Part shown: one piece after another, positions 4,111 to 56,820 of the stretch
How positions within the stretch are numbered: position 1 is the first letter of the stretch
How the letters are laid out: each line of letters begins with the position of its first letter
DNA from: Lunularia cruciata
Taxonomy: Eukaryota > Streptophyta > Marchantiopsida > Lunulariales > Lunulariaceae
DNA: 64,000 nt
Reading direction: 5' to 3'
Assembly (NCBI GenBank): GCA_948567375.1
Contig: OX419759.1
Location: 60,540,593-60,604,592, forward strand
Program-made: the position numbers and the translations under genes
The notes under the pieces: model-generated
Seen by the model: only the letters and a program-made list of their open reading frames with translations
Told to the model about the DNA's origin: nothing
Database searches by the model: none

Positions 4111-5518
4111 ATGTAGGAACTTCTTGTGTTCTATGAGGTATGTTTTCTTTCTTAGTTAAAACCCTACTTCAAACTACTGTACCACGGTCCTTAATCCAGA
4201 AATCGTCCAACTACATGAAATTTTTACTAGGCGCCCCTGTTAAGGAGACCGTGAATCCAACCGTGGGACCAGATTGTTCATAAAAGTACGGTACAGGAGA
4301 TCTAATTGATCTTATCCTTACACAAAAGCTTACGTGCATGGACGGAGTCTAGAACAGACAAACACATGACGACTGTATGAAAAGAGTTAAGGAAGATTTA
4401 GGAGCGAGAAATCGACGAGGAAATTAGTCGGGAAAATTGAGGATGGTGGGTGGATGTAACGCGAATTGCAGGTAGGCTCCATGATCGGGTTCTCAACCTT
4501 TTAAAGGCCCGCGAGGCGCGTGACCGGCACACTTCCCTGCGTGGTGTCCTCACGCCCCTCGTCTTTCAGTGCACCATTGCTTCTCCTCCGCAGATGCATG
4601 TGCTCACAATCCGTGCGTGAAACTGATTTTCCGATCGGAATTACTTCCGCACGCACGCCGCCACCTTGTAGTAGTTTTAACGACACCGCAAGGATCGGTT
4701 TTGGTCTGTGGTGTGGCGAATGTTTGTGCTGTTGCGGTAGCGAGTTTTGCAAGCAGTGCAGTTTCTGCATGGTGGTGTATGGATGGTGATTGATAACCGA
4801 GGGCAAGGAAGGGAGGGAGAGAGAGAGAGAGAACTGAAACTAAAGCGGGAATTTCGTTCATTCACTGGAGTTTAAGTCCGTTCGCGAAACCCTTTGTCTT
4901 CGTCTCCCTGGAAATTTACTTATAGTGTTCTGTTCCTACTTGAAGTTGATTCGGGAATTAAATCGACCGATCTGCCTTCAAAGTCCGGTGGATCGGCCCG
5001 AGGATTTGGGAAGAAGGGTTTGAACTCTAAAGTACTTTGGTTTGGAGAGAGAGAGTAGCAGGAGAAAGAGGAAGCAGAAGAGGAGAGGGAAGGAAGAAAA
5101 AGAACACGAGGAGGTTCCTCTGAGAGTTCCACAAGGGAAGCTGTCCCATTGGCCTTTTACTCTTCAGAGTAGAGGAACCCTAAGAGGTTTACCACTACTG
5201 CATCTATATTTAGAGGCACTCGAACAGTCGTCTCATGTTCGGCGGGTGTATATAGAAATCACGGGGTTCTTTGAGTCGGGAAAGATCGAGGCAAGGCGAT
5301 AGTTGCTTAGAAGGGAAGGGAAGGGAAGGGGAGGGAATTGATCTTCGCGCAGAAGAGATCGATTCGATTGCCTCGTCGGCTTCATTGATATCTGTTGGTT
5401 TGGACCTGATCGAACAGTAGAAGGCCTGCCTTTCCCTTCATTGGAAGAGAATTGTCGGAGCAGATTCTCTGTTTCTTCGTCCTTAGTTGCTCAAAGATCG
5501 CAATTCCCGCAGCCGGGA
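4111..5518 (+). promoter_or_regulatory. Upstream region and 5' leader of the mitoferrin gene
   Basis: GC content rises sharply from about 4.5 kb, and a GA microsatellite (about 4816-4834) and purine-rich leader sequence (5040-5110, 5300-5340) precede the start codon. This is typical of a plant 5' untranslated region. Short open frames here occur on both strands and look like by-products of GC content. No TATA box can be assigned with confidence, and a leader intron cannot be excluded. Confidence 0.4.
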
Positions 5519-7580
5519 ATGTCCGAGGCGGCATCCGAGCTGCGGGAGAGGCTACTGCGAGCTCGCAAGTCCACTCAGGCGTCTACGAGTTATGGAGAAC
5601 CTCTTGCTGCTCCCCTCCAAACAAAGGATACTGCGAAGTTTGATGGGTTAGGGTTTGGGCAATACATGTTAGCTGGATCAGTAGCTGGGATGGTGGAGCA
5701 CATGGCCATGTTTCCGGTCGATACGTTGAAAACCCGCATGCAGATGTTGGCCAGTGCTGGAGGATCGATTCACAATACGATTGGTAGAGCTTTGGTCACA
5801 ATCATAAAAAATGAAGGTCCTTTGGGGTTGTACAGAGGAATTGGAGCTATGGGACTTGGTGCGGGTCCGGCTCATGCTGTGTATTTCTCAGTCTATGAAG
5901 TTGCCAAACAGAAACTCGGGGGTAACGAAGCTGGCTTCCATCCTCTGGCCCATGGCTGTGCCGGGTCCCTGGCCACAATTGCGAGTGACGCTGTTTTCAC
6001 TCCAATGGATGTTGTGAAACAGAGATTGCAGGTGCGACAGAGTCCCTATGCCGGGTTGACAGATTGCATAAAGACGATGCTCCGAGAGGAAGGAATCAGA
6101 GCGTTCTATGTATCCTACCGCACCACCGTGGTTATGAATGTGCCTTTCACCGCTGTGCACTTCGCATCTTATGAGGCTGCTAAGAAAATCTTGACCGAGC
6201 TCTCACCAGACCAGGCCTCGGAGGTACTTAGCTCCTGCTTCTGCCATCCAGTCAATTTTGGTTTCAGATATTTGTAGTTTGTACTTAAATTCAGCTACCA
6301 GTGCTTTGGCCAGGTAGGATTCCGATCATCTTGTGTTGCATCTTAGAAGACAATTACTTGCCTCACCACCTGGTTGACGTCATTTTGGGGCTTGGCTCAA
6401 GAGGAGATGATCATACTTGTGCTACCATCATTCAGCTGAAATATCATCCTACTCATTCTTGTCTAGTCTGAGAATTCTCTCTACTTAAGGAGAAAACAGC
6501 AAACGAGTTATATCTTCCGAAAGGGCATCACCAATAATACTTACACCTCTTATCCATCGTGGTGTGACAGGAAAGTTTGCTTATGCACATCACGGCTGGT
6601 GGTGCGGCCGGGGCTCTTGCAAGTGCAGTAACTACTCCCCTAGATGTGATCAAAACACGTCTACAAACCCAGGTATAAGAGATGGATTTCTTTGATGTAC
6701 TCCGGCTCAATTTTAATAGAAGCGGCATCTTCTGTTGAAATTGAGCATTATCTTGTCGTGGTGTTTAGTATCCATAGACGGGCTTTTTCAAGGGTTGTTT
6801 CTGGATGTCGGGTCGATTCAGATAAGCGGTGTCCAAATTCGAGCGAGCCAATCACGAGATGACTTTGTCTGATCAGTTGAAATTGGTGGACACAAAGGAC
6901 AACTGGCTGGTTAACTGTAAATTCGTTGCATCGTCTATGGAGTTAGTGTACGCTTGAGCAAATTCAATTTACAGATGAAGCTTCTAACCTATTTTGGCTC
7001 AGTAGATTAGCGTAATCGTGAAGTTTGTAGATATTCTACGTGGTTGGTTGGGACAATATGACATAAAAAATTAAGTTTGTCAGGCTGAAGTAGCGGTGTA
7101 AGGCAGTTAATCTAGTGGCAAGGTTCGCCATGTGAAGAGAGTTAGAGCATCATGTCTTAAAAGAAATTTACCTGCACGTTTAACGGAGATTTTTGTGATC
7201 GAATGAATCGTAGGGTTTCCGCAACTTATTCATATGCGGGTGATATCCAAGGGAAGCCAGTGAAATTCCTTGGACATCACTTGCTGGAATTGGCAAAGAC
7301 AGATCATGTTGGTGAGGATGGAGATGAAGGTGAATGTGGTATGTAGGAACTGACAAAGTGGAGTTTTCTGTCTCAGGGTATTTGTGGATCTGAAAGATTC
7401 AGGAGCGGGTCTGTGCTACATGCAGCTAAGAGAATTGTGAAGCAGGAGGGCCCATCAGCTTTACTAAAGGGCATCAGACCAAGAATTTTGTTCCACACTC
7501 CTGCCGCTGCTATTTGTTGGTCCACTTACGAAGCTGGGAAATCGTTTCTTCTGCGCTGGAATGAAGGGCAAAACAAGTGA
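5519..7580 (+). CDS. Mitoferrin-type mitochondrial iron carrier (3 exons)
   Basis: Exons are 5519-6223, 6571-6672 and 7377-7580, all phase 0 with GT-AG introns of 347 and 704 bp, giving 336 aa. This is a mitochondrial carrier family (SLC25) protein of the inner membrane with the three signature repeats: PVDTLKTRMQ, PMDVVKQRLQ and PLDVIKTRLQ. The segment MNVPFTAVHFASYEAAKK in repeat 2 and the overall length point to the mitoferrin (Mrs3/Mrs4-like) branch, which imports iron into mitochondria for Fe-S cluster and haem synthesis. The ATG at 5519 (MSEAASELRERLL) was chosen because the open frame upstream has only non-ATG starts. Reading exon 1 past 6223 leads into a short intronic tail and stop, which is an artefact. 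Assignment to carrier is secure; substrate is inferred from family resemblance. Confidence 0.9.
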
Positions 7581-41407: not shown

Positions 41408-42144
41408 TGTAATACCAAGAGCTAGCCATATGATCTAGATGTGAAATTTGGTTTGGTAATACCTAGAATGATGTTATACATGATGGAAAAAATAGATTAG
41501 ATAGAAGTATCACCAAAAGAGTACTTCTACTAATAGGGCAGAAACCAAAATAGACTTGAAAAACTTATAACCAACAGCTAGACATATGATTTAAAGGTGA
41601 GAATTGGTTTGGTAACATCTAGAAGGATGTTATAGATGATGGACCAAATAGATCAAAATAAGGTATCACCAAAAGGGGACTTCTACTAATAGAGTGAGGA
41701 CCAAAATATGCCTAAAATTTTTGAAGGTTATTTTGAAGGCCTAAACGGATGAATTAGACATAAAAAATGTGCTAACCACCCCTTCCAACAAAAGAATGGA
41801 TGGCCTTCCCTCCTTCCTACTTTGTCTTGTTGAGAGCTTTCCAACTGTACCTCACTCACGTGATTCAAAGATTCCTACAAAAAGATTCCCTAAAAGATTC
41901 CCTCTGATCAAAGCGTGTTTGACCAACCAGATAGGACTAGGACCAACATGTCACCCATCCAAGTGGGTAATCCAAGGGTGGAGCTTGTGAATATATCACC
42001 TATCTATGTGCCTAATCCTATGGTGGAGCTTCCTTGGAGGAGATCATCTTTGTCTATATAGTAAAGAGAAGGTGCTCCTTTGGGGATCGGATGCTTGAGG
42101 TGAAATCTATGTTTTCTCTCTTCTCTTGTCCTTGGAGTGTTAAA
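41408..42144 (+). repeat. 5' LTR of element A
   Basis: TGTAATACC start, TATATAGTAAAGAGAAGG TATA region near 42055, ends beside the primer site at 42146. Same internal half-LTR duplication as the solo copies. Confidence 0.9.
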
Positions 42145-42145
42145 A

Positions 42146-42157
42146 TGGTATCAGAGT
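42146..42157 (+). promoter_or_regulatory. Primer binding site of element A
   Basis: TGGTATCAGAGT; the first eleven bases complement the 3' end of plant initiator methionine tRNA. Confidence 0.85.
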
Positions 42158-42284
42158 GAGTGTTTTAATCCAAGAGAATAGACCACCCCTCTTGGAAGAG
42201 CATGAACTACTGAAACCAAGTAATTTGAGGTGGAGAACATAGAGTAATTGCTAGACTTGGGAAGGACTTTAGAGAGCGGATGGG

Positions 42285-42506
42285 ATGGATGCACCGAGAG
42301 GAAAATTTCTCACACCTAGCTTCATATTCTTGAATCCATTCCACATCAAGGTTATGTACATCCAATGTGAGCAAATGAGAGAATCAGTAGTTTATCACTT
42401 TGGAATAGAATTCATGGATAGAGTGATGAACTCACCAAATCCAGTGATTCTACCCATGGTGGTATACAACAAAGAGCAGAATTTGACAATCTACATTCTA
42501 TTATGA
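42285..42506 (+). CDS. Leader ORF 1 of element A
   Basis: A 73-codon intact frame (MDAPRGKFLTPSF start) between primer site and gag. Its C-terminal half, HFGIEFMDRVM then PVILPMVVY and LTIYIL, parallels the next ORF and the leader ORF of element C (51211-51426). No known domain. Its preservation among otherwise broken frames may be chance for so short an ORF. Confidence 0.5.
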   Translation: MDAPRGKFLTPSFIFLNPFHIKVMYIQCEQMRESVVYHFGIEFMDRVMNSPNPVILPMVVYNKEQNLTIYILL

Positions 42507-42510
42507 TGTT

Positions 42511-42726
42511 ATGGATGTGAATATCCCAAATCCTCTCCCTTTCAACACTCAAGTAGAAATTTGTTATATAATGAGATCACTCAAAAGATCAAAAGTGATG
42601 TTTAGAGATTTTGTGGTTAGAAATTTTGGTGAGGAGTATTGTCAACAAGTGATCGCTTTTGAGGTCCCAATGGTAGTCCCAATAGTTTTTGTGCCTTCCA
42701 AAGTGATCATATTAACTCTCTATTGA
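42511..42726 (+). CDS. Leader ORF 2 of element A
   Basis: A 71-codon intact frame starting MDVNIPNPLPFNTQVEICY, only 4 bp after leader ORF 1 and apparently a diverged duplicate of it (FVVRNFGEEYCQQVI, PMVVPIVFV, IILTLY). Its PNPLP start resembles the PPNPLPPN start of element C's leader ORF. Function unknown. Confidence 0.5.
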   Translation: MDVNIPNPLPFNTQVEICYIMRSLKRSKVMFRDFVVRNFGEEYCQQVIAFEVPMVVPIVFVPSKVIILTLY

Positions 42727-42729
42727 AGT

Positions 42730-43760
42730 AGACAGTAGCAATTGAGTATTGCAAGAACCATGGATCTACAATTGTAGGAGCTGGTGCAAGGAATGCAATG
42801 GATGTTGAACAAATTTTGAGAGATTAAGATGACCATGGAGGCATTCCAAATTCAAGTGCAGATCCTCAAGAATGATCAAGCAATGCAAGAAGAAGAGTCA
42901 TCTCAAAACCCAATACCTATGACTAAAGTACTTGGAGAGGCATCGATGCCTACAACCCGATCAATAATGAAGCCACATTGCTACTCCTGATGAAGAAGAC
43001 CTGCAACATCGAGCCTTACAAGGGAGCAACATACAATGGGAGTAGTGGAAAACTAGATCTTGAGGATGAATCAAGATTTCCGATTGTTCTCAACAGAGAT
43101 CACGGAGTATGTTGCAAGTGTGTTTGCATGTGAGTACTTGACTAATAAAGTTCTCACATGGTACAATGTTTGGGAATGATCCATGTTGGCAGAGAGAAGG
43201 GAGGTCATGTGGACAGCAACGCAAGAAGGATTGCTGAAGAATTTCCAATTGGTGGATTCCGTGCATATGGCCCAAATCCGACTATGGGGATTGAGACAAA
43301 AGAAAAGCGTACAAGAGTATATGGAGGTATTTTTGGATCTACAAGTCACGATGACCGACATGAGTCTAGCAGAGACTCTCGACAATTTCAAATGAGGATT
43401 GAAGGAGCAAATTTGCCAAGAAGTCATGGTGCAAAATCCTCACATGGTGTTTGAAGCCATTGCTTGTGCACAAAGAATAGCAAGGGCATTGGGTAGAGGT
43501 GAAGTAGTAGTTCCACCTCAACATTATTTGGCAGAAATGCCACACATGGGTGGACAAGTACCAATGGAATTGGGCAACCTTTGGTTTTGGGATCAAGGAG
43601 CATGAATGCTTCAAGGAGAGCGTGGACAAGTAGAAGAACGGAGAGATGGAATCCCATGAGGAGAAGGAACTCAAGGAGAACAACAATGTTGTTGCAATTG
43701 TGACCGTATTGGGCACATATCTGCCAATTATTGTGCTTGTCTCCCTAGAGGCCCTTGACC
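42730..43760 (+). pseudogene. gag of element A, broken
   Basis: Gag-like frames include MWTATQEGLLKNFQLV, SVQEYMEVFLDLQVTMTD and HMVFEAIACAQRIARAL, ending in a zinc knuckle (CCNCDRIGHISAN, near 43690-43740) whose last Cys spacing is disturbed. Stops occur at W and Q/R-like positions. Confidence 0.75.
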
Positions 43761-43939
43761 TTCATACAGGCAATCTTTGAACAACATGGAGGATGCATTG
43801 AAGAAGAAGAGGTGGAAATCACTATGGAAAATGAAGATCACCAATAAATGCACCTCATGGCCTTATTGGCTTAATAAGGAAGTAGAGAAGCAAGGGAAGG
43901 AAGAAGACAAGCACACAAAGGTCCCAAAAGGCAACCTCA

Positions 43940-46760
43940 CAATTGATTGTTGTGAATAGAGTCCTAGAAGGCAATCAAGTGAGAATATTAATAGATCCGT
44001 GAGCAACAAAGAATTTCTTGTCTTGTTGTGTTGCAATATGATTGGGAATGGATCTAGAGAGAGATGAGAGAGAAGAAGTAAAGTTACCTAACGGGCAAAC
44101 ACAGAGGATTGAATCATTACCTAAACTGGTAACACTCTCTACAAGAATATCAAGAAGTAATTGAGTAGTGAGTGATACAATTAGCTTGTTGTGATGCAAT
44201 CTTAAGCATGCCATGGATGGAGCATTACAACACTATGGTAGATTGGAGGAAGAAAGTAGTGAGAACCCACCAATGGTCAATCATTGGGGTTAAAGAAAAT
44301 TCACACAAGCAAGAACTACCTCTCTATGTCATTGGGACGGTAACTATTTGTAAGACAGATAGATGTTTCATGGGTTTAATAAGAGAAGCCCAAAGTGCAC
44401 AACTTGATGGACAAATTTTTGAGAAATTGAAAGATATGGTGGATGAGTTTCAAGATGTCTTTCCTTATGATTTACCCTCAGGATTATTACCAAAAAGGAG
44501 AGAAGATCATAAAATTGAGACACTCATTAGAAAGACACCTCCTTGTAAGGCCCCATATTGCCTAACACCTCATGAGTTGGAGGAATGTAAGACTCAAATT
44601 AAGGGTTCATCTAACCCAAAATATCCCTATATGGGGCTCCTATCTTGTTTGTGAAGAAGAAGGATGGAACAATGCACATGTGCATTGACTATGGGGGTCT
44701 CAATCAGCAAATAGTGAAGAACAAATACTCCTTGCCTTGCATGGATGACCTATTTGATCAACTCTATGGAGCAAGATACTTCACCAAATTGGACTTGTGA
44801 AATGGTTACAATCAAATCCAAATTGCATAGGAGGATGTGTACAAAACTGCCTTTCAAACCAAGTATGGCCACTTCAAATATCTTGTGATGTCTTTTGGCC
44901 CCACCAATGCACTTACCACTTTCATGAGTCTAATGAATGACATTTTTGTCCATACTTAGATAAGTCTAGTATCATCTTCCTAGATGACATCTTAGTATAC
45001 AATAGCACAATGATGGAACACAAACAACATCTACAAGAAGTCTTCCAAATTTTAAGACAAAATTGATTATGAGCCAAAATCTCAAAGTGCAAGTTTGGCA
45101 AGTCTAAAGTAGACTACTTGGGGCATGGAGTAAGTGTAGAGGGTATTCAATTATTGACAAATAAAATAAAGGTCATTCAAAAATGGAGTATCCCAAAAGA
45201 TCAAACTCAACTCAAGAGCTTCTTGGGGTTGATGGGATTTTATCATCAATTTGTCAAGGACTTCTCCAAGGTTGCACAACCTTTAATGGCACTACTTGGC
45301 AAGGGAAAGAAGTGAACATGGAGAACTATACAAGAGTTGGCCTTTCAAGAATTGAAAGCCACCTTGCTACATGCACCAATCTTGAAGTGGTATGACCCAA
45401 AACATCCAATCAAGTTGGCTACATATGCATTAGGCGTAGCAATAGGAGCAGTCCTACAACAAGTGTGGCATGATGGATGGCATCCAATTGCATATTTGTC
45501 TTGAAAGTTTTTATCGGCAAAGTGCAACTATCACACCATAAAAAAAGAAGAGCTGGCTATTGTCCTTGCAACCAAGCATTGGAAGCATTATCTGGGCGAG
45601 AAGGCAATTGTAGTAGAGATAAATCACAAACCTCTAGTCTACTTGGAGACACAAAAAGATCTATCTCATCACCAGATTTGGTGGGCAGAGTGGTAACAAT
45701 GCTTCAACATAACATCACGTATGTAGGAGGTAAGAAGCAACTTACAGATGCATGCACCCGCATACCAATGGCAAATAATTTGGTGGCAGAGATTAAGATT
45801 AATCTTGAATTTTGGCCAGAGATCCTGGCTACTACAAAAATTGATCCACAAATTGTAGGAGCACAATCATCCAAAGGCATCACCAGCACCCAAGGACTCA
45901 CCTTTCATGATGGAAAATTATGAATCCCAAATGTCCCAAAATTACGCACCACTATTCTAGCAAAATGTCATGATTAGGCCATTGCAAGTCATATCAGAGT
46001 GGACAAGACCTTGGAACAATCCATTGCCATTATTATTGGCCCAAGATGAGCAATGATGTGATGGACTACGTACATAGTTGCCTACTCTATCAACAGAACA
46101 AAGCTTCTAATCAAGCTCTTGCAGCGCTTCAACCTCTCTCCACTCCTCCACAACGTTGGGAACATGTGAGTATGGATCTCATTTGTGAATTACCCAAAAC
46201 CACCTTAAGATTTGACTCCATCTTGCTCTTTGTGGACCAACTCAGCAAAATGATTCATGTACGCCCATGACCGCTCCATGACTAGCTCAATTATACTTAG
46301 ATGCAGTCTTCTCTCACCATGGCTTGTCTCGAGTACTCATCACCAATAGAGGCACTCACTTCACCAATTTGTTTTGGCAAACACTTTTTGGTTTCTTCAA
46401 AACCAAGTTGGCCATGTCCATAGCTTACCACCCACAAATAGATAGACAAATAAAACTGGCTAATTGCACTATTGAAGACATGTTGCACGGCTTCACCTTA
46501 GAAGAGCAAGAGAGGTGGGACACCCTACTCCCCTTGGTGGAATTTGCTTACAACAATTTAGTGAATGCATCCACCTTTATCACTCCATTCTTCCTCATGT
46601 ATGGTGAGCATCCCTTTACACCTTCTAGCTTGATGAAGATACGTCCGATGGCTACCAAGGTCGATGTAGTCAACACATTTGTTTCTCAAATCCAACACGG
46701 TGTGGAGAGCTCCAAGCACAGTTTGCAGATTGCACAAAATCAACAGAAGTAGTATGTTGA
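43940..46760 (+). pseudogene. pol of element A (protease, RT, RNase H, integrase), broken
   Basis: Protease remnant VRILIDP-stop-AT lies near 43980. RT runs from 44430 (DEFQDVFPYDLPSGLLP, then [19 protein letters not shown] near 44975). RNase H connection GFYHQFVKDFSKVAQPLMAL starts about 45235, and integrase from 45930, with WEHVSMDLICELPK and CLLYQQNKAS. Within the core the second catalytic Asp reads Asn (codon 46345) and, exactly 36 codons on, the catalytic Glu reads Lys (codon 46453), so integration activity is doubly lost. Frames shift repeatedly. Confidence 0.85.
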
Positions 46761-47034
46761 TGCACACCGTAGGCACATGGAGTTTAATGTTGGGGGATCA
46801 AGTGTGGTTGTCTATAGCCAACCTCACATTAGTTGGCCCTCGTAAGCTCAGACCCCATTTTATTGGGCCTTTCTCTGTTCTTCATTGAGTTGGCATTGTG
46901 GCCTATCACCTTGAGCTACCACCACACATGAAGATCCATCCAGTGTTCCATGTTTCCCTACTATGCAGATATGCTCCTCGATCTGGCCATTGTCATTCCA
47001 CACAAGACATTTGACCTTGTTTGACACTCATTGA

Positions 47035-47185
47035 TGGCACAGAGGAATATGAAGTGGAACATATCCTCCAAAAATGCATGCGTGGTACTCGCCATCCACG
47101 GGTGGACTATCTGGTATAGTGGAAAGGTTACCCCTTCTATGAGGCAACTTGGGAGCCTGCTACCAATTTGACACTTGCACCGCTA
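47035..47185 (+). pseudogene. Chromodomain of element A, with stop
   Basis: EEYEVEHILQKCMRGTRHP, then DYLV-stop-WKGYPFYEATWEPA. This is the C-terminal chromodomain that defines chromoviruses and directs integration towards marked chromatin. A stop replaces one residue before WKGYP. Confidence 0.85.
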
Positions 47186-47249
47186 TTGGTGCAAGTGTTT
47201 GAGCAACAGTTGTACAACTAGGATGTTGCGTTTTAAAAGGAGGGAGGTG

Positions 47250-48011
47250 TGTAATACCAAGAGCTAGCCATATGATCTAGATGATCTAGCCATATGATCT
47301 AGATATGAAATTTGGTTTAGTAACATCTAGAATGATGTTATACATGATGGAAAAAATAGATCAGATAGAAGTATCACCAAAAGAGTACTTCTACTAATAT
47401 TGCAAAAACCAAAATAGACTTGAAAAGCTTAGAACCAACAGCTAGACATATGATTTAAAGGTGAGAATTGGTATGGTAACATCTAGAAGGATATTACACA
47501 TGATGGACTAAATAGATCAAAAGAAGGTATCACCAAAAGGGGACTTCTACTAATAGAGTAGGAACCAAAATATGCCTAAAATCTTTGGAAGGCAATTTTG
47601 AAGGCCTAAACGGATGAATTAGGCATAAAAAATATGCACATCCCCTCCCCCTCTTTCCAATAGAGGAAAGGATGGCCTTCACTCCTGCTTGCTTTGTCTC
47701 ATCGATAGCTTTCCAATGGTACCTCTCCCACATGATTCTAAGATTCCTACAAGAAGATTCCCTAAAAGATTCCTTCTAGTCAAAGGGACCAACCAAATAG
47801 GACCAGGACCAACATGTCACCCATCCAAGTGGGTAATCCAAGGGTGGAGCTTTTTGACATGTCACCTATCTATGTGCCTAATCCTATAGTGGAGCTTCCT
47901 TGAAAGAGTTCATCTTTGTCTATATAATAAAGAGAAGGTACTCCTTTGGGAATTGGATGCTTGAGTGTGAAATTTGTGTTTTCTCTCTTCTTTTGTCCTT
48001 GGAGTGCTACA
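47250..48011 (+). repeat. 3' LTR of element A
   Basis: 762 bp, homologous to the 5' LTR with many substitutions. A local duplication of ATGATCTAGCCATATGATCT near its start makes it about 20 bp longer. Confidence 0.9.
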
Positions 48012-48016
48012 GAAGA

Positions 48017-50765
48017 AGAACAATTGCAACCCAATTACTAAGTCAAAGCCACCTATAAGCAAAGTAGTGGAGGTGCATGAGAAATCCTCTATGGTAGGTA
48101 AACTAATATGAGAAGAGACCTCTATGGGGCAATACATTAGAGAAGTAATTAGGTAGGTAATTAAAGCCAAGACATCATTTTGACAATGTTAAAGTCGTAA
48201 TCTATTAGAGATGAAGGATTATGAGCCAATTGGCATTAATAGCGGTAGCACAAGGAGGAGATTGTGGCCATAGTAGAACTAGTATTAGGGGTAGAAAATT
48301 CTTTGTAGAGTTAGGATCCCTACTATATAACGGAGCTTGAGCCACTTAGTGCAAGTTTGTCCACCTTATGTTGTAACCATTATTTTTTGTAGTAGGAAAT
48401 TAAGGTTCAAATTCTATCTTTGAGGGGAACCCTATTTGGATTGAGTTGAGTATTAAGGAGTTATCAAGTGACTTATGTAATTTTTTGGCCCATGGGCTGA
48501 AGTGAATACTAGTTATGTTGTAAGATGCTCTGGTTGTTGGGTTATCTGTGCAGCAAATACTATAGAGAAAATCCATTTTATCTATTGATGTAATGAGTAT
48601 TGAGTCTTGTTTCAATTCTTGAACATGTATTATGTGTAAACTGATGCTCCTCATTATGCTTTTTGCATTCTTGTCTATATCTTAGAGTGTCACAAGCATT
48701 GCCCATAGCATTTCCTTTCATTGTATTCTTGTCTAGATCTTAGAGTGTCATTGGCACTACTTGTAACATTTCCTTACTTACCCGGATGGTGACAACCAAG
48801 GAAGTTGAAGGGCTCACAAAAGGATAAACATGCAAGCTAATTCCTAGGTTAAGTGTCTAAGGGTTAACTTTGTCCCGCAATTGCCTATAGATCATTACAT
48901 GGTCTCTACCCATAGGCCAATTATGGGAATTTTGTCAGTAGATCACTAAGAGATTGTTTGCTCATAGTCCAAGACTAGATTGTCATGCACTTCTATACCC
49001 CATAGCATCCCATACCCTTGCCTACGGGATTAGATTAACTCTCAGACATTTTTGGCTCTACTACCAATTGATGTGTTTGTCCTCTCCACTCCCTTTTACA
49101 ACTCATTCAGGCATGCTTATTCTACACCGACCCATGAGGATGCAAATTTTTTCAATTTAAGGGTAGGACTACTCCTATCTTTCAATCAAAATTTATTTCA
49201 ATCTAGGAGAGCATTACCCAAGCCCTTAGATAAATCTCTTAGTTTGAAGGAAACACTACCTCCCATTTTTACAAGTCCTATTGATCCCAATCCAGGGAAA
49301 GCATTACTTCCTATGTTTACAAGTACACTTTCAAACTTTTAGAGTTGGGCACTGCTTCCATTCATGGCAAGCACTTTTGCCCAAGGAAATCTATCCACCC
49401 TAGCACTATACTTTATGGTTGTGCAAGTACTACCTAAATCAGCTCCTATTGCCCTTGTAGCTCTTACTACAATGTCATCAACCTCAGGAGGAGCAAAAAA
49501 TTGTATAATCCCTAGAACAATAGTGTTCACAAGGTGAGAACATTTCAAATCATTCTTATAGATATTTGAAAATGTTTGTATGGCACAAAATATCATAGAT
49601 GATACTACCATGGCATGACAAATCGGCCAATGTTTCATTGGTGTTGTGCAATACTTGTTTAGTGGCCTAGCCTTATAACACCTATGGGTGTATGTATGTT
49701 CTATTGGGATTTTTAGTATTATATACATTATGTTGTATTATATATAGTTGAAGATATTGTTTATATAGAGTTTAACCAAGCTTCTATGCTAATAATGACT
49801 AGCTAGAGTTAGCCATAGCCAAGATAGAGGTGACTCTACTTTAGAAGAAGGTGAAAGAGTGAGCACCACTATTTTGGATTCTAGTGTATTGACTTGGTAT
49901 TGTTCATATTAGTTTGGCTTTGAGGAAAGAGTTGAGAACTTTTGGCCCACAAGCCTTTTTGGTTTGGATTCTTCTATAGTCCAAAGATAGCTTATGTAAA
50001 GGAATCCTTGACTTAGTAGTTGGATCAATATAAGACCACATCCTTAGAGGATTATTCCCATGAGCTTGGATATTCCTCTAGACTTTTAAGTTCAGATGAC
50101 TTTTTGCCTAGTGACTTGAGTTACTATAGTAATTAGTAACATTGATGTATAACTATTTCACAAGTATATAAACAAGAGATGAGGAAATACTCATCATCCT
50201 TTCACTTGGAAAGATAGTTTGCAACTATCTTTCTCTCATTGAGTTCTCTAGTGAGCAATGCCTTGAGTTTTGGAGATGCCATTGAGTTCTAGCTTTGCAA
50301 GAGTGTGATGAGGTTTAGTTCTTTGCCTTCTTAGTCCATGGTGTGCTACTCTAAATAACCATTAGAGGTTCATTCCACTAGTAGCCAGAAAAATCCCATG
50401 CTCCTCAACAATATTAGCTCCACCATCAACCACCTCTACTCTAAAAGTAGGAATCACATCATCCCTACTCTCACAAAGTGTGGCAACTAACCAAAACATT
50501 GGAGTTAAGTCAACTCCCAATTTAAACTTGTCATTTGCTGAGAACAAAGGAGAGCACATAATCAATTGCACCACCTCTAACATCATGCTAGACTCAATTT
50601 TTGTAGTAGTAGTTGACTAACTAGTATCTAGTCCATCATGCACTTGACCACCACCTACTACACATGCATTAGGAATTCTAGGATCCATGGATGTTGTTTG
50701 TAGTGTCTCAAAGAGTTTGAAAGACTAGGGAAGTTTGACCTATCTATTAGTCTTTCTTCTTTGTG
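48017..50765 (-). pseudogene. Continuation of the minus-strand family-B element
   Basis: At the right end the minus strand carries an almost open frame (50840 down to 50362) with SANDKFKLGVDLTPMFWL and IPTFRVEVVDGGANIVEE. This joins in frame with 56507-56414 once element C and one copy of its 5-bp duplication are set aside. A second coding-like stretch (49728-49339) reads PPEVDDIVVRATRAIGADLG. The part below about 49 kb is uncertain in strand and identity; it contains a 58-bp tandem duplication at about 48667-48782. Confidence 0.5.
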
Positions 50766-51188
50766 TGTAACAATATGGAGTTTAGTGACGAAGTTAGTCG
50801 GGCTTACAAAGTAGAGAATAAGACAAAATAGCCTAGAATATTCTAGAAGCATCTAAGAAGCTTCTTAGGAAGCTTCCCAACTAGTTAACTTGCGCCCTAA
50901 GCAGGTAGCTTCTAGAAGGAAGCTTCTAGAAGCTTCTAACTAGCTTAGCTTGCCCGCCAAGTAGGCGGCTTCTAGAAGGAAGCTTCTTGAGAAGCTTCCT
51001 AGTTAACTTGGCTTGCACTCTAAGAAAGCAGCTCAAGGAAACTTCTTGAGAAGCTTCAAGAGTCTTGTATGCTACCTATAAATACCAAGGCCGAAGCTCA
51101 TGCTAGGCATTCGGAGTTTTCCCTCATTCAAGTGTCCCAATGTGAGCTTCCATTCTCCTATTTCTCTCCTCGGTTTTGGTCTTTTACA
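50766..51188 (+). repeat. 5' LTR of element C
   Basis: TG...CA termini, 423 bp. U3 is packed with AAGCTTC/TTCTAGAA units. TATA box TATAAATA at 51077-51084. Confidence 0.97.
50836..51057 (+). promoter_or_regulatory. Array of nine GAAnnTTC heat-shock-element cores in U3
   Basis: GAAnnTTC occurs at 50836, 50857, 50869, 50919, 50929, 50979, 50991, 51038 and 51050, several linked by TTCTAGAA into longer alternating GAA/TTC runs. This is the binding consensus of heat-shock factor trimers. The array ends 20 bp before the TATA box. The same array is repeated in the 3' LTR (+5220 bp). Heat response is a prediction. Confidence 0.75.
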
Positions 51189-51189
51189 T

Positions 51190-51201
51190 TGGTATCAGAG
51201 C
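51190..51201 (+). promoter_or_regulatory. Primer binding site of element C
   Basis: TGGTATCAGAGC, complementary to the initiator methionine tRNA 3' end, one base after the LTR. Confidence 0.92.
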
Positions 51202-51210
51202 AGGAATGGG

Positions 51211-51426
51211 ATGGATGGAATTTATGGACCACCAAATCCACTTCCGCCAAACCATTGGGACTTTCATGTCCAGATATTACCAAAGCATCATTTCACACAA
51301 TTCATCACCTCACGCTTTGGGCAGGATTTTCTACATATGATCACCGTGTCAGAGGAACCCTTGATACTTCCAGTTGTAACTTATGGAGAACGGTGGACGT
51401 GTTGTATCTACGTGTTAATCAACTAG
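51211..51426 (+). CDS. Leader ORF of element C
   Basis: An intact 71-codon frame starting MDGIYGPPNPLPPNHWDFHV, ten bases after the primer site and ending 33 bp before the gag ATG. It has FITSRFGQDFLHMI, PLILPVVTY and CIYVLIN, paralleling the two leader ORFs of element A. It contains no stop, while the downstream gag has several. No known domain. It could be a translated regulatory upstream ORF or a small protein. Confidence 0.55.
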   Translation: MDGIYGPPNPLPPNHWDFHVQILPKHHFTQFITSRFGQDFLHMITVSEEPLILPVVTYGERWTCCIYVLIN

Positions 51427-51459
51427 ATAAATTGCATGTAGTGGAATAGAGTAGTAGCG

Positions 51460-52389
51460 ATGGCAGCAATACCGGATGTTATCCTTGCAATGCAACAACA
51501 AATCGAGCATCTTACTCGATTGTTGGATGAACGAGACCAGCAACGACGAGAACAGATAGACAGAGCGCCAGTTCGAGATGGAGAAGATCGCATTCGATTT
51601 CTGAAACCCAAGGTGTTTGAAGGCAAGAATCTTCCAGGCACAGTGGAGAATTTTGTGTTTGACTGTGAACGTTACTTTGAAGCCACCAATCTTCAAGACG
51701 AGCGGAAACAAATTCTCTTGGCTTCTAGCCAATTGGATGGAGTGGCAAAACTTTGGTGGCGATTCCGAGTAGAAAGAGCTGAACGACAAATTGTTACACC
51801 AATTTTTACATGGGCAGAATTCAAGGATGCAATACTTGGTCGATTTCAGACTATAAATGCCACCCGAGCTGCACGAGGTAAATTGGCAGAGTTGAGGCAG
51901 ATTGGCTCAGTGAGAAGCTACATCACACAATTTCAGAATATCATCATGCAAATTCCAGATATCCAAGAAGGTGAAGTTCTGGATCAATTTGTGCGAGGAT
52001 TGAAGTCACGAACCAGATTGGAGGTGACCATGCGAGAGCCATAGAATGTAGAACAAGCCATGCAATTGGCTGAGCGTTTTGATTCCTTAGTTGCGACAAC
52101 TTAGTCTTGACCTCGACCTACACAAAACCCACCAGTACCACGAGTGGAAGAACCGGTACCAATGGAGATTGATGCTATCCAACGAAGACCACTTAGCACA
52201 ACAAATAGAGAAAGATTACGACAAAATGGAGGTTGTTTTTATTGTCGCCAATTGGGGCATTGCATTGCTGAATGTCCACTCAAGAATGGATGACCTTGAC
52301 AAGTTGCCCAAGTGGAGGTTGTGGAGCGGAATGATCAGGGAAACGAGGAATCCCGGTAGGAGATTTCGAGCCACCTACTGGGAGCTTGA
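51460..52389 (+). pseudogene. gag of element C, with in-frame stops
   Basis: Retrotransposon gag (capsid) domain: coiled N-terminus (MQQQIEHLTRLLDERDQQRR), then LAGVAKLWW-like WW motif (DGVAKLWWRF), FKDAILGRFQ, and zinc knuckle CFYCRQLGHCIAEC (about 52226-52277). Stops at 52042, 52102, 52108, 52291, 52297 and 52357 lie in an otherwise continuous frame, and each is one transition away from a Gln or Arg codon fitting the context, or similar. The frame ends near 52389, where the pol frame begins in the -1 register. Confidence 0.9.
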
Positions 52390-55300
52390 TTAGTTCCAAT
52401 GGGATTGAAGGCTCGACCTATGCAAGTTTGCTTCACTTGCAAGGTATGATATCTAATCGGGGTTGTAGAATTTTGGTTGATTCTGGAAGTTCAGAGAATT
52501 GCATGTCTATGCAAGTAGCAAAGGAATTGGGTATTCCTATCAAGCCAGTGATTGGAAGTAGTTTGATGATGGCGGATGGTAGAAAGGGTTCTGCATTCCG
52601 CACCTTGCATCCTGTTACCTTCAAGATTGGGAAGGAGTATTTGGAGTGTATGAGGTTTGTAGTGGCACCTCTATACTATGATATCATTCTGGGTCTACCT
52701 TGGCTTGAATGTCATAAGGTTCAATTTGATTGGACCCGACACCAAATTCAAGTACAACACCAAGGTAGGAATTTCCGATTAGGTTGTCTAGCACCTCTGA
52801 GTAAGACACCTAAGAATAGTCAGTCCCAAGATGGGAAGTTTGTCGAGAAGGTAGCCATAGAGCAAATCTGGAAGGGAGATGAGTCCCAAGATGGGAAGTT
52901 TGCCAGGAAGGCAACCATGGAGCAAGCTCGGAAGAGAGATGAGTCCCTAGAAGGGAAGTTTGTTAATGAAGCAGCCATAGAGCAAGCTTTGGAGGAAGAT
53001 AAGTCTGTATTCGCAGTGTGGATCAAGCCGATTGCACAAGAACAATCTGAGGAGGGCCAAGTGCCGCATCAAGCAACGGTTGATCGGATAGTTCAAGAGT
53101 TTGCAGATGTGTTTCCGGATGATCTGCCAAAGGGATTACCCTCTGATCGAGGTATGCCCTTCAAGATCGAGTTATTGCCAGGGAGTACTCCAGTGAGTAG
53201 ACCAATCTATCGGCTCTCACCAAAGGAGTTGGAGGAGTTGCGAACAACACTTATAGAGTTGTTGGAGAAGGATTTCATACAACATAGTACCTCTCCTTGG
53301 GGAGCACCGATACTATTTGTTCCAAAGAAGGATGGAGGACTTCGTTTCTGTATTGATTACCGTGGGCTCAATAAGCAAACTGTGAAGAATGCATATCCCT
53401 TGCCTCGGATCGATGACTTGCTTGATCAATTAAGTGGAGCACGATACTTTTCCAAGCTAGATCTTCGTAGCGGCTATTGGCAAATTCCTATTGAAGGAGA
53501 GGACATGAAAAAGACTGCCTTTCGTACAAGGTATGGACATTTTGAGTGGAGAGTTCTACCTTTCGGACTCACTAATGCTCCAGCAGTCTTCATGGATCAG
53601 ATGCATCGGGTGTTGGAGGGGCTATTGGATCAGTCTGTGGTAGTGTTCTTAGATGATATCTTAATCTATAGTAGGACAGAGGCAGAACACATGAATCATG
53701 TGCGAGAAGTCCTAAGACGACTACGACAGTGGAAATTTTACTGCAAGAAGTCAAAGTGTGCTTTTTGGCAAAAGGAGGTTACCTTCTTGGGTCATAAGAT
53801 CTCATCAGAGGGGATCAAGATGGAAGAAGAGAAGATCAAGGCCATTACTGATTGGCCTACCCCGAAGGATGCTACCAAAGTACGAGCGTTCAACGGATTG
53901 GCCAGTTTTTACCGACGGTTCATCCACTATTATGCTCACGTGGCTGCACCATTGACTGACCTCTTGGGAAAGGACTCGAGCTTCCAATGGACCACCAAGC
54001 ATGAAGAAGCATTCCAAAAGTTAAAGCATATGGTGTCTTCAAGACCCATTCTTCAACCATATGATCCTCAACTACCTTGTGTGGTTGATTTTGATGCTTC
54101 TAACTTTGCAATTGGAGCTGTGTTGCAACAAGAATTTCCAGATGGCCTACATCCTATTGCCTTTGTGTCTCGCTGACTAAATACAGCTGAAAGAAATTAC
54201 TCTGCTTGAGATCGGGAACAACTTGCAATGGTATATGCCACCAAGGTATGGAGGCATTATCTCTTGGGGAAATAAGTGATCATGCGAATTGATCACAAGC
54301 CATTGTTGCAGACCTTACACCTAGAGCACATGAAGAGTCAACATCATCGATGGGAAGAGCAAGTCCAATTGTTCGACATCAAACTTGAGTACAAACCAGG
54401 TCGGTTCCCTGTCATCCCTGATGCTCTATCACGACGACCTGATTTGAAGTCTCTTCCTCTCATCGCGGCAGTAATTACGACGGTGTCAATTGATCCCAAG
54501 ATTCATAACGAGTTTCGGTTAGCCCTACAGCAAGATCCCTTCTTCCAAATGGTACACGATCGTCTAACAGCACGCGACAAGGAGTACAACACCTTCTCCT
54601 TCAAGGAAGGCCTTTTATTCCATGCAGACCAGATCTATGTTCCAACCAAAGGTGATCTTCGACTTGTGCGCCTTCAAGAAGCCCATGATTTACCAATAGC
54701 TGGTCATATGGGAGTGGACAAGACCTTGGGCACCCTCCAACGCCAATGGTGGTGGCCCAACATGACACGAGATGTTTGAGACTTTGTCCGATCATGTGAG
54801 AGTTGCCAACGGAACAAGGCCAGCAACCAGAAGCCGAGTGGACTCCTTCAACCACTCGCCATTCCATCCGCTCGTTAGGAGCATGTGAGCTTGGATCTCA
54901 TCACATCCTTGCCAAAGACAAAACAAGGACACACCGCAATTGTGGTGTTTGTGGATAAGCTTAGTAAGCAAATCCACTTGGCACCAACCTGTGATACCGT
55001 GGATGCTCCAACCTTAGCGCAAATCTACTTCGACAATGTCTTCAAGCATCATGGGATGCCACGTGTACTCATCTCCGACCGTGATCCTCGATTTACCAGG
55101 AAGTTTTGGCAAGCACTCTTCCAGATACTCGGCACCAAGCTTGCTTTGTCCACGGCCTATCATCCTCAAACTGATGGACAAACCAAACGCGCCAATCGTA
55201 CATTGGAGGATATGTTGCGGGCCTTTGTCAATGTCCACCATACCAACTGGGATGAATGTCTTGCAGCTGCAGAATTTGCCTACAACAATTCCAAACAGGC

Positions 55301-56051
55301 AAGCACTGGATTTTCTCCCTTCTTTCTCAATTTTGGCCAAGATCCGCTTGTTCCAAATTCTCTTCTTGCTCCCCCTCCCTCTCAGGTTCCTCATACTTCT
55401 ACATTCTTGACCACTATATCCCAATCTCTCCAACAAGCCAAATCTCACCTCCTTGTTGCTCAGAATCGCCAAAAACAATATGCAGACCATCATCGTCGTG
55501 ATCTCACCTTTGAAGTTGGTGATAAAGTCATGCTATCCTCTAGTAACCTCCCTCTCCCACTTGATACCCAAGTTTGTAAACTTGCTCCTAATTGGATAGG
55601 ACCCTTTGATATCACCCACATTATCTCTCCTGTTGCTTATCGTCTTGCCTTACCTTGTCACATGCGTATCCATCCTGTCTTTCATATTTCCAAGTTGAAA
55701 CCCTTTGTTCCTAACCCTTCTTCCTTTTCCTCTCGAGTCCAACCTCCCCCTCTTCCTGTCCCTATCAATGATCATGAGGAGTACGAAGTTGATCGTATCC
55801 TTGCGCGTTGCCATATTCAACGAGGCCGTCACCAACATACGGAGTACAAGGTCCTTTGGAAAGGGTATCCCCTTCATGATGCTACATGGGAACCTCTTTC
55901 TCACCTCCAGAATGCACAGATGGCCATCAAGGAATTTGAAGCTTCACTGGCGACGAGGACGTCACCAACTAGCGGCGGGGGAATATGTAACAATATGGAG
56001 TTTAGTGACGAAGTTAGTCGGGCTTACAAAGTAGAGAATAAGACAAAATAG
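52386..56051 (+). pseudogene. pol of element C (protease, RT, RNase H, integrase, chromodomain), with in-frame stops
   Basis: One register throughout. Protease [13 protein letters not shown] (about 52467); RT with [22 protein letters not shown] (catalytic, about 53640); RNase H with [18 protein letters not shown] and IDHKPLLQT; integrase zinc part HDLPIAGHMGVDKT and CESCQRNK, core LDLITSLPK and ISDRDPRF. The catalytic Glu position reads Lys (codon 55185-55187, exactly 36 codons after the Asp at 55077). Chromodomain EYEVDRILARC, LWKGYPLHDATWEP (about 55780-55920). Stops at 54174, 54207, 54273, 54777 and 54876. The frame runs on 63 bp into the 3' LTR and ends at 56051. Confidence 0.93.
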
Positions 56052-56408
56052 CCTAGAATATTCTAGAAGCATCTAAGAAGCTTCTTAGGAAGCTTCCCAA
56101 CTAGTTAACTTGCGCCCTAAGCAGGTAGCTTCTAGAAGGAAGCTTCTAGAAGCTTCTAACTAGCTTAGCTTGCCCGCCAAGTAGGCGGCTTCTAGAAGGA
56201 AGCTTCTTGAGAAGCTTCCTAGTTAACTTGGCTTGCACTCTAAGAAAGCAGCTCAAGGAAACTTCTTGAGAAGCTTCAAGGGTCTTGTATGCTACCTATA
56301 AATACCAAGGCCGAAGCTCATGCTAGGCATTCGGAGTTTTCCCTCATTCAAGTGTCCCAATGTGAGCTTCCATTCTCCTATTTCTCTCCTCGGTTTTGGT
56401 CTTTTACA
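55986..56408 (+). repeat. 3' LTR of element C
   Basis: 423 bp, 422 identical to the 5' LTR; also holds the end of the pol reading frame. Confidence 0.97.
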
Positions 56409-56413
56409 TTGTG

Positions 56414-56820
56414 GGTCCCACTCCATTGATGCTCCTCTAGGCTTTGGAACATATATTTCATTCTTAGTAACTATGGCAAATGCATCTACTTGTGCTGCTC
56501 TACACATTAAATCAAGGACATCTGTATCACTAGCATAAGATGTGGAACTCTCAACACTTGAATTTGATCTCCTCTAAGCTATGGCCATGCTAGCCAACCT
56601 TTATTCTAACTGCTCAATCCAAGCAACCATGGTTATATCAAAAGCAAGGGTAGGTATCAGACTTCTACAAGGTGTAGGTCCTCTGCCATTGCATCCTCCA
56701 TGACTTGGGGCTTGTCTACCACTTGCCATAGTAGCCCTACCACTTTATAACTCTAATTGTATCAAAGCATCAATCACTAATATGACCAAATCTATGGTAA
56801 TGGTCACATTTGTCTCTTAG
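56414..56820 (-). pseudogene. gag zinc-knuckle region of the minus-strand family-B element
   Basis: The minus strand reads RDKCDHYHRFGHISD-stop-C (56820-56770), a zinc knuckle in which the second Cys is Tyr and a stop replaces one residue, then VTKNEIYVPKPRGASMEWDP (about 56480-56420). Solo LTR A cuts it on one side and element C on the other. Confidence 0.65.

Follow-up and report, generated by a model that had tools for sequence, protein, structure and literature searches.

A heat-shock-element array in the LTR of a young Ty3/gypsy chromovirus of the liverwort Lunularia cruciata: a candidate heat-responsive enhancer

Introduction

The locus described here raises the question of why the promoter region of a liverwort retrotransposon should be crowded with GAAnnTTC palindromes, and whether these are heat-shock elements (HSEs) through which the heat-shock factors (HSFs) of the host would control the element. 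Lunularia cruciata is a complex thalloid liverwort whose 580-Mb genome is described as swollen by Ty3/Gypsy bursts (PMC9985172); in the part of that paper that was available, no promoter motif or trigger is named for the bursts. The window analysed is a whole stretch of 64,000 nucleotides of this genome. A preliminary description of its sequence had placed an HSF-type array in the long terminal repeat (LTR) of a very young gypsy element and had suggested that heat activation evolved there independently.

The element that contains the array

The array belongs to an LTR retrotransposon on the + strand (50761-56413), delimited by its LTRs, target-site duplication, primer-binding site, polypurine tract and protein domains. 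The duplicated target site TTGTG (50761-50765, unstranded, matching 56409-56413) encloses two LTRs of 423 bp, both of the TG...CA type. The 5' LTR (50766-51188) and the 3' LTR (55986-56408) are identical at 422 of 423 positions, with a sole mismatch (51061 A, 56281 G; 99.8% identity), in agreement with the very young age first proposed. At the plant substitution rate of about 6.5e-9 per site per year, which may not be the liverwort's rate, this single difference corresponds to roughly 0.2 million years. The primer-binding site TGGTATCAGAGC (51190-51201), which we take to be of the initiator tRNA-Met type, lies 3' of the 5' LTR, and the polypurine tract GGCGGGGGAATA (55974-55985) lies 5' of the 3' LTR.

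Four open reading frame (ORF) pieces are placed along the + strand. The gag piece (51460-52044) matches PF03732 (3.4e-16) and PF19259 (1.6e-10). The following piece (52386-54176) contains the protease, the reverse transcriptase and the start of the RNase H (PF13975, PF00078, PF17919), and is followed by a piece with the integrase zinc finger (54276-54779; PF17921, 7.6e-12) whose beginning is, by eye, the end of the RNase H. The last piece (54885-56051) comprises the integrase core, an SH3 domain and a chromodomain (PF00665, PF24626, PF00385), the PF00665 match scoring 29.3 bits, under its 32.6 cut-off. The domain order is gag, protease-reverse transcriptase-RNase H-integrase, SH3 and a C-terminal chromodomain, as given in Pfam by PF00078, PF17919, PF17921, PF24626 and PF00385. 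With this order, TG...CA LTRs, a 5-bp target-site duplication, a tRNA primer site and a polypurine tract, the element is a Ty3/gypsy chromovirus. Membership of ONSEN/COPIA78 was considered and rejected, given that the integrase is not placed before the reverse transcriptase and a chromodomain follows it. At 5441-6277 the window contains a mitoferrin exon that shares 88% identity with that of Marchantia polymorpha and 87% with that of Riccia sorocarpa, with 85% of the query covered, which marks the host as a complex thalloid liverwort, probably distinct from both species. This closeness to liverworts, together with the chromodomain and the domain order, supports the initial assignment to a gypsy chromovirus of a non-flowering plant.

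This copy is broken and lacks the open gag-pol frame of an autonomous element: the gag frame ends at 52044 and frame-0 stops interrupt pol at 54174, 54207, 54273, 54777 and 54876. Young LTRs combined with several coding breaks suggest movement in trans or assembly errors. The linker between the protease and the reverse transcriptase contains a 60-bp tandem repeat (52822-53005; three copies, about 77-78% alike) that encodes a repeat of about 20 amino acids. No relatives were found in viral contigs, either with a 30-base LTR pattern or with the integrase. Among chromoviruses, the Tcn1 clade is reported from mosses and Selaginella (PMC2864245).

Layout and density of the array

All nine GAAnnTTC announced for U3 were recovered, at 50836, 50857, 50869, 50919, 50929, 50979, 50991, 51038 and 51050. 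They span 222 bp (50836-51057) and are repeated in an identical array in the 3' LTR (56056-56277); the 5' LTR also contains four TTCnnGAA dyads. Seven of the nine share the inner GC, and in a tally of the LTR over 64 x 6 three-letter dyads GAA-2-TTC is the most frequent. The array starts with a perfect three-unit HSE (GAA TTC GAA; 50836-50848, + strand) placed 5' of the tandem modules, whose dyad at 50836 stays GAAnnTTC in 73 of 80 copies. It is overlapped by a perfect CTnGAAnnTTCnAG at 50833-50846.

The array amounts to about 3.3 copies of a module of about 60 bp and was therefore built by local duplication. On the + strand, module 1 (50857-50918) consists of two GAAGCTTC dyads 12 bp apart, a linker and TTCTAGAA; module 2 (50919-50978) of a perfect four-unit HSE at 50919-50936 (GAAGCTTCTAGAAGCTTC), a linker and TTCTAGAA; and module 3 (50979-51037) of two dyads 12 bp apart and a linker. 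The partial module 4 (51038-51057), again two dyads 12 bp apart, adjoins the core promoter. The TATA box TATAAATA (51077-51084, + strand) begins 19 bp past the end of the last dyad. This box varies little (5 of 376 cells in 47 copies), and transcription would start about 25-35 bp downstream of it.

An HSE is taken as at least three alternating nGAAn units 5 bp apart, and the LTR contains such elements. In the strict 5-bp register only the four-unit run (50919-50936) and the three-unit run (50836-50848) are present; the remaining dyads are two-unit, spaced 12 bp or off by one, and fall outside the register. The early statement that several cores are joined into alternating runs is thus correct for these two runs and fails for the other dyads. 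The two-unit, out-of-register dyads, which are most of those here, would class as weak by literature standards.

Dinucleotide shuffles of the LTR contained a mean of 0.2 GAAnnTTC and never reached nine (0/5000 and 0/10,000), which upholds the original view that chance is unlikely at such density. No LTR shuffle attained the observed counts of GAAnnTTC and TTCnnGAA, and a four-unit run appeared in 1 of 5000; chance was ruled out as the origin of the dyad density. The nine dyads are not independent, because the array is a repeated module. When a single module was kept (module 1, 2 or 3), the GAAnnTTC count was attained in 3, 2 and 2 of 10,000 shuffles, respectively, so that the seed module is itself unusual; the TTCnnGAA count was attained in 59, 0 and 1367. 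When all modules were removed, one dyad of each kind remained, a number attained by 998 and 934 of 10,000 shuffles. Among modules 1-3, all 16 dyad columns are invariant versus 23 of 37 linker columns (P = 0.0025, with one hand-placed gap); after re-cutting the modules and adding the fourth dyad pair, the figures are 15/16 versus 23/37 (P = 0.017). These alignments are short, and more weight is given here to the comparison of LTR copies.

Loose GAA/TTC clustering was dropped as a yardstick: loosely spaced chains of 5-12 occur elsewhere in the window, and strict alternation alone stands out. Outside the element, the window contains no strict three- or four-unit runs; 100 simulations of these 58 kb gave means of 1.1 three-unit and 0.02 four-unit runs. 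A second, older gypsy-like element (41419-47965; LTRs of about 680 bp, pieces 82-93% alike) served as a control and showed 0 and 1 GAAnnTTC in its LTR stretches, with no HSE array.

Retention of the array among LTR copies

A search with the LTR returned 4527 first-look candidates, 40 of which were scored. Among the best 30 nearest LTRs, two of them the element's own, 28 contain nine GAAnnTTC and 2 contain eight, and the four-unit HSE is found in all 30. A query with an 84% fragment led to older copies, namely eleven further loci with 3-8 GAAnnTTC in the best match; the fragment itself has two.

Sampling independent of the array was achieved by searching the 566-Mb genome for the U5-PBS junction with at most 2 mismatches, which gave 8803 sites, and none for the reversed word. 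The sample comprised 100 junctions among the matches listed, each with 0 mismatches and located on contig C1 within its first 27.5 Mb; it leans to copies with less decay. Every one of the 100 is a member of this LTR family. Eighty copies align as one full-length piece and were analysed, with 20 dropped, some of them apparently complete (e.g., L071). The identity of the 80 to the window LTR is 76-98% (median 90). The preliminary description had proposed counting GAAnnTTC per LTR across the family: the mean is 7.71 (range 3-10) in the 80 copies, with 0.14 each for AAGnnCTT and CTTnnAAG. In the stretch read for all 100 copies the mean is 7.22 and the minimum 0, the upstream sequence read being devoid of GAAnnTTC for at least one junction.

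At least three units in register are present in 76 of the 80 copies (44 of 47 in an earlier set) and four units in 49, the perfect four-unit run being missing in the other 31. HSEs are therefore retained in the LTRs of the family, as would be expected of a heat-responsive LTR retrotransposon. The length of the LTR varies among copies from 360 to 473 bp. The two 473-bp LTRs (L054, L080) have ten GAAnnTTC each, and six LTRs of 409 bp (L056, L069, L073, L085, L094, L104) have eight each.

Selection or drift on the units

Substitution rates were calculated with the window LTR as reference, excluding CpG sites as well as any position at which the majority of copies depart from it. In the 80 copies they are 0.027 for the dyad triplets, 0.062 for the inner nn, 0.075 for the linkers and 0.043 outside the array. 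The inner nn and the triplets differ per cell (rank test P = 0.0046); a rank test shows no slower change at the dyad positions than in the LTR outside the array (P = 0.31). When each of 48 aligned sequences was used as reference, the triplet rate was 0.30-0.69 (median 0.43) of that of the remaining array, and singleton variants were even between the two (median ratio 1.01). The true dyad mask is the slowest (rank 1) of 222 circular shifts, and 617 dyads survive versus 448 under neutral decay, whose maximum in 300 runs is 482.

The frequency of the variants was then considered. Rare variants, present in one or two copies, number 48 at 69 triplet positions versus 109 at 142 other array positions, an even distribution that is expected because such variants arise after insertion. 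Variants at 10% or more were taken as marking lineages that transposed. They occur at 1 of the 69 triplet positions versus 24 of the 142 others (Fisher 3.6e-4), the common-to-rare ratio being 1:48 in the triplets and 24:109 in the rest of the array (P = 0.0024); base-matched draws were as low as observed in 3 of 10,000. With a cut-off of at least 5%, variants are found at 9/69 versus 40/142 positions (P = 0.0099), and the common-to-rare contrast gives P = 0.066 when the array is the comparison and 0.11 when all positions are. With a cut-off of at least three copies, the 80 copies give 17:33 versus 115:187 (P = 0.35), and the 47 copies give P = 0.026 two-sided, or P = 0.048 one-sided after exclusion of the positions private to the window copy. 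Lone GAA/TTC triplets (26 positions) are about as slow as dyads (0.030 versus 0.027, CpG sites out, 80 copies), and therefore this control lends no support to a special slowness of the dyads; with CpG sites in and 47 copies, the lone-triplet rate is 0.076. The signal of constraint depends on the cut-off, and the P values are rough since the copies share ancestry. From these alignments, purifying selection on the GAA/TTC units in the transposing lineage may be regarded as moderately supported.

Genome-wide burden of HSEs

The perfect four-unit pattern occurs 7083 times in the 566-Mb genome versus 117 for the reversed pattern. Three-unit HSEs number 37,428 versus 14,300 (strand matches), an excess of only 2.6-fold, so that the sharp excess is confined to four units. 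Among the 20 four-unit sites listed first, which fall within the first 2.4 Mb of C1, this LTR family contains 18. Another of the 20, L032, showed no match to the LTR, and L031 (C1:359460-360140) is a distant LTR relative, 68% identical over 182 bp (76.8 bits against the window LTR; at most 26.8 in 200 shuffles). L031 contains a perfect five-unit HSE (GAA TTC GAA TTC GAA) upstream of a TATA-like ATAAATA. Seven loci found with it (L164-L170) have 2-4 GAAnnTTC in the LTR-equivalent stretch versus 0-1 reversed; in alignments with the window LTR, six of them are 66-73% identical over stretches of 176-187 bp, and the seventh aligns over 45 bp only. There is here a hint that the HSEs are older than the youngest family, a biased one in that L031 was picked by its HSE and several of the matches span that HSE.

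The element may have seeded the genome with thousands of heat-response sites, the share of the family being estimated from the 20-site sample. At C1:93050-93211, three three-unit HSEs lie within 162 bp without GAAGCTTC, possibly in a host heat-shock promoter.

Heat-shock factors of the host

The genome was searched for the HSF DNA-binding domain, and all five candidates were scored; two are above the Pfam cut-off. The hit at C10:53595627-53595803 is an exon that rescans as PF00447. The hit at C14:50658-51116, on a 1.25-Mb contig, is a full-length match that runs through four stops, consistent with an unspliced reading. The ORFs downstream of both loci have no Pfam family match. Judging from class motifs in the ORFs, the C10 factor presumably belongs to class B and the C14 factor to class A. 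In another liverwort, MpHSFB1 is reported to bind an HSE probe in vitro (PMC12445474).

Proposed mechanism and rival explanations

The array is probably an HSF-responsive enhancer in the U3 promoter of the chromovirus; we infer both binding and induction from the sequence. Under heat, trimers of the host's HSFs would occupy the two in-register HSEs, of four and of three units, a short way 5' of the LTR TATA box, assisted by the neighbouring two-unit dyads, and the bound HSF would drive the transcription of the element RNA. In LTR elements both new LTRs take their U3 from the 3' LTR, and therefore the array passes to every new copy. More copies would then be left by lineages whose HSEs work, with the GAA/TTC units kept while the spacers drift, as the comparison of copies supports. 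Modules would be gained or lost through tandem duplication and, as a by-product, thousands of strong HSEs would be dispersed in the genome. The HSF-type array first proposed is thus upheld to the extent that the HSEs are real, are retained in the sampled copies and show fewer common variants in their units than around them.

The same array might have arisen by neutral tandem expansion, AAGCTTC being duplicated locally and then as a module of about 60 bp that spread with the element, its likeness to HSEs having no function. The modular structure and the variable length of the LTR fit this account, as do the unremarkable dyads left when the modules are removed, and neither the cut-offs of at least three copies and at least 5% nor the lone-triplet control give support to selection. 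Tandem expansion did happen, as the preliminary description had foreseen in naming a simple AAGCTTC repeat as a possible mimic, but it leaves unexplained the units kept beside changing spacers: the dyad columns are invariant among modules 1-3, variants at 10% or more avoid the units, and dyad survival exceeds neutral decay. Moreover, the three-unit HSE sits outside the modules. Neutral expansion as the whole explanation is therefore considered unlikely.

It is distinctly unlikely that a different regulator reads the GAAGCTTC/TTCTAGAA palindromes and that the LTR answers another signal. Most dyads are indeed two-unit, 12 bp apart and outside the HSF register, and the inner GC recurs in seven of the nine; nevertheless, the inner nn vary more than the triplets, a pattern that HSF would allow, and nearly all copies of both sets keep three or more consecutive units in register. 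We know of no other plant factor that reads such palindromes. A role in RNA, with the U3 palindromes at the 3' end of the genomic RNA forming hairpins for the life cycle of the element, is highly improbable. For the array, 231 nt long, the folding energy is -100 kcal/mol (z = -5.2 versus 200 shuffles), but any run of self-complementary words folds alike, the inner nn would pair as well and yet vary more than the triplets, and there is no Rfam match within 50600-56600.

With the HSF-responsive enhancer as the preferred reading, the element provides the gypsy bursts of L. cruciata with a trigger that can be tested, and it indicates that, in a plant other than a flowering one, selection acts on the stress-response array of a chromovirus. 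A tentative extension, which we consider possible though doubtful, is that heat acting through HSF drove the bursts that enlarged the genome. The element would then be the main holder of strong HSEs (about nine tenths of the four-unit sites, from the 18 of 20 sampled out of 7083) and, with only two HSF genes found, one of them class-A-like, this reservoir could wire neighbouring genes into the heat response or soak up HSF, tuning the whole response.

Comparison with known systems

Among the matches listed in mostly non-subscription literature, no titles or opening abstracts mention HSE arrays in gypsy LTRs or in liverworts, and the available parts of PMC11656987, PMC8656106, PMC10881000 and PMC7916287 contain no account of an HSE array in a gypsy LTR. 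Reports of gypsy elements induced by heat in non-flowering plants already exist, and therefore such a response in a bryophyte element of this kind would not alone be new. In Physcomitrium patens, RLG2 resembles the present element in being a bryophyte Ty3/gypsy and is reported as heat- and ABA-induced, but, unlike in the liverwort, no HSE array is described for it in the available text; RLG1, a chromodomain element, is reported there as repressed by heat shock (PMC7466625). A review lists heat-induced gypsy elements for pine and Cryptomeria (PMC9780303), and Arabidopsis Gypsy elements near proteotoxic-stress genes are stated to contain HSF motifs (PMC8725346).

A similar promoter architecture is that of the Brassicaceae copia elements ONSEN/COPIA78, COPIA37, TERESTRA and ROMANIAT5, whose LTR promoters also contain three- and four-unit HSEs. 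According to that study, four-unit HSEs go with up to thousand-fold induction and three-unit HSEs with up to hundred-fold, and the ONSEN HSE arose via duplication of a proto-HSE (PMC5059998). ONSEN and its kin are Ty1/copia elements of flowering plants with, as far as that text describes, one or few HSEs per LTR and a demonstrated heat response, whereas the liverwort element is a Ty3/gypsy chromovirus with nine dyads, tandem modules, thousands of copies and a predicted heat response. The independent evolution of heat activation first suggested holds only insofar as the element is not copia.

The Helitrons of Caenorhabditis are comparable as a mobile element that forms a main genomic source of HSEs, in dense clusters. 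They are nematode DNA transposons for which HSF-1 binding and gene induction are demonstrated (PMC6927752), whereas in the liverwort HSF binding and induction are predicted. New here would be a chromovirus, present in thousands of copies, in which an HSE array of several modules is under selection. In the scale of its HSE dispersal the liverwort element is closer to these Helitrons than to ONSEN, and would represent among plants what they are among nematodes, a mobile element from which a large part of the HSEs of a genome derives.
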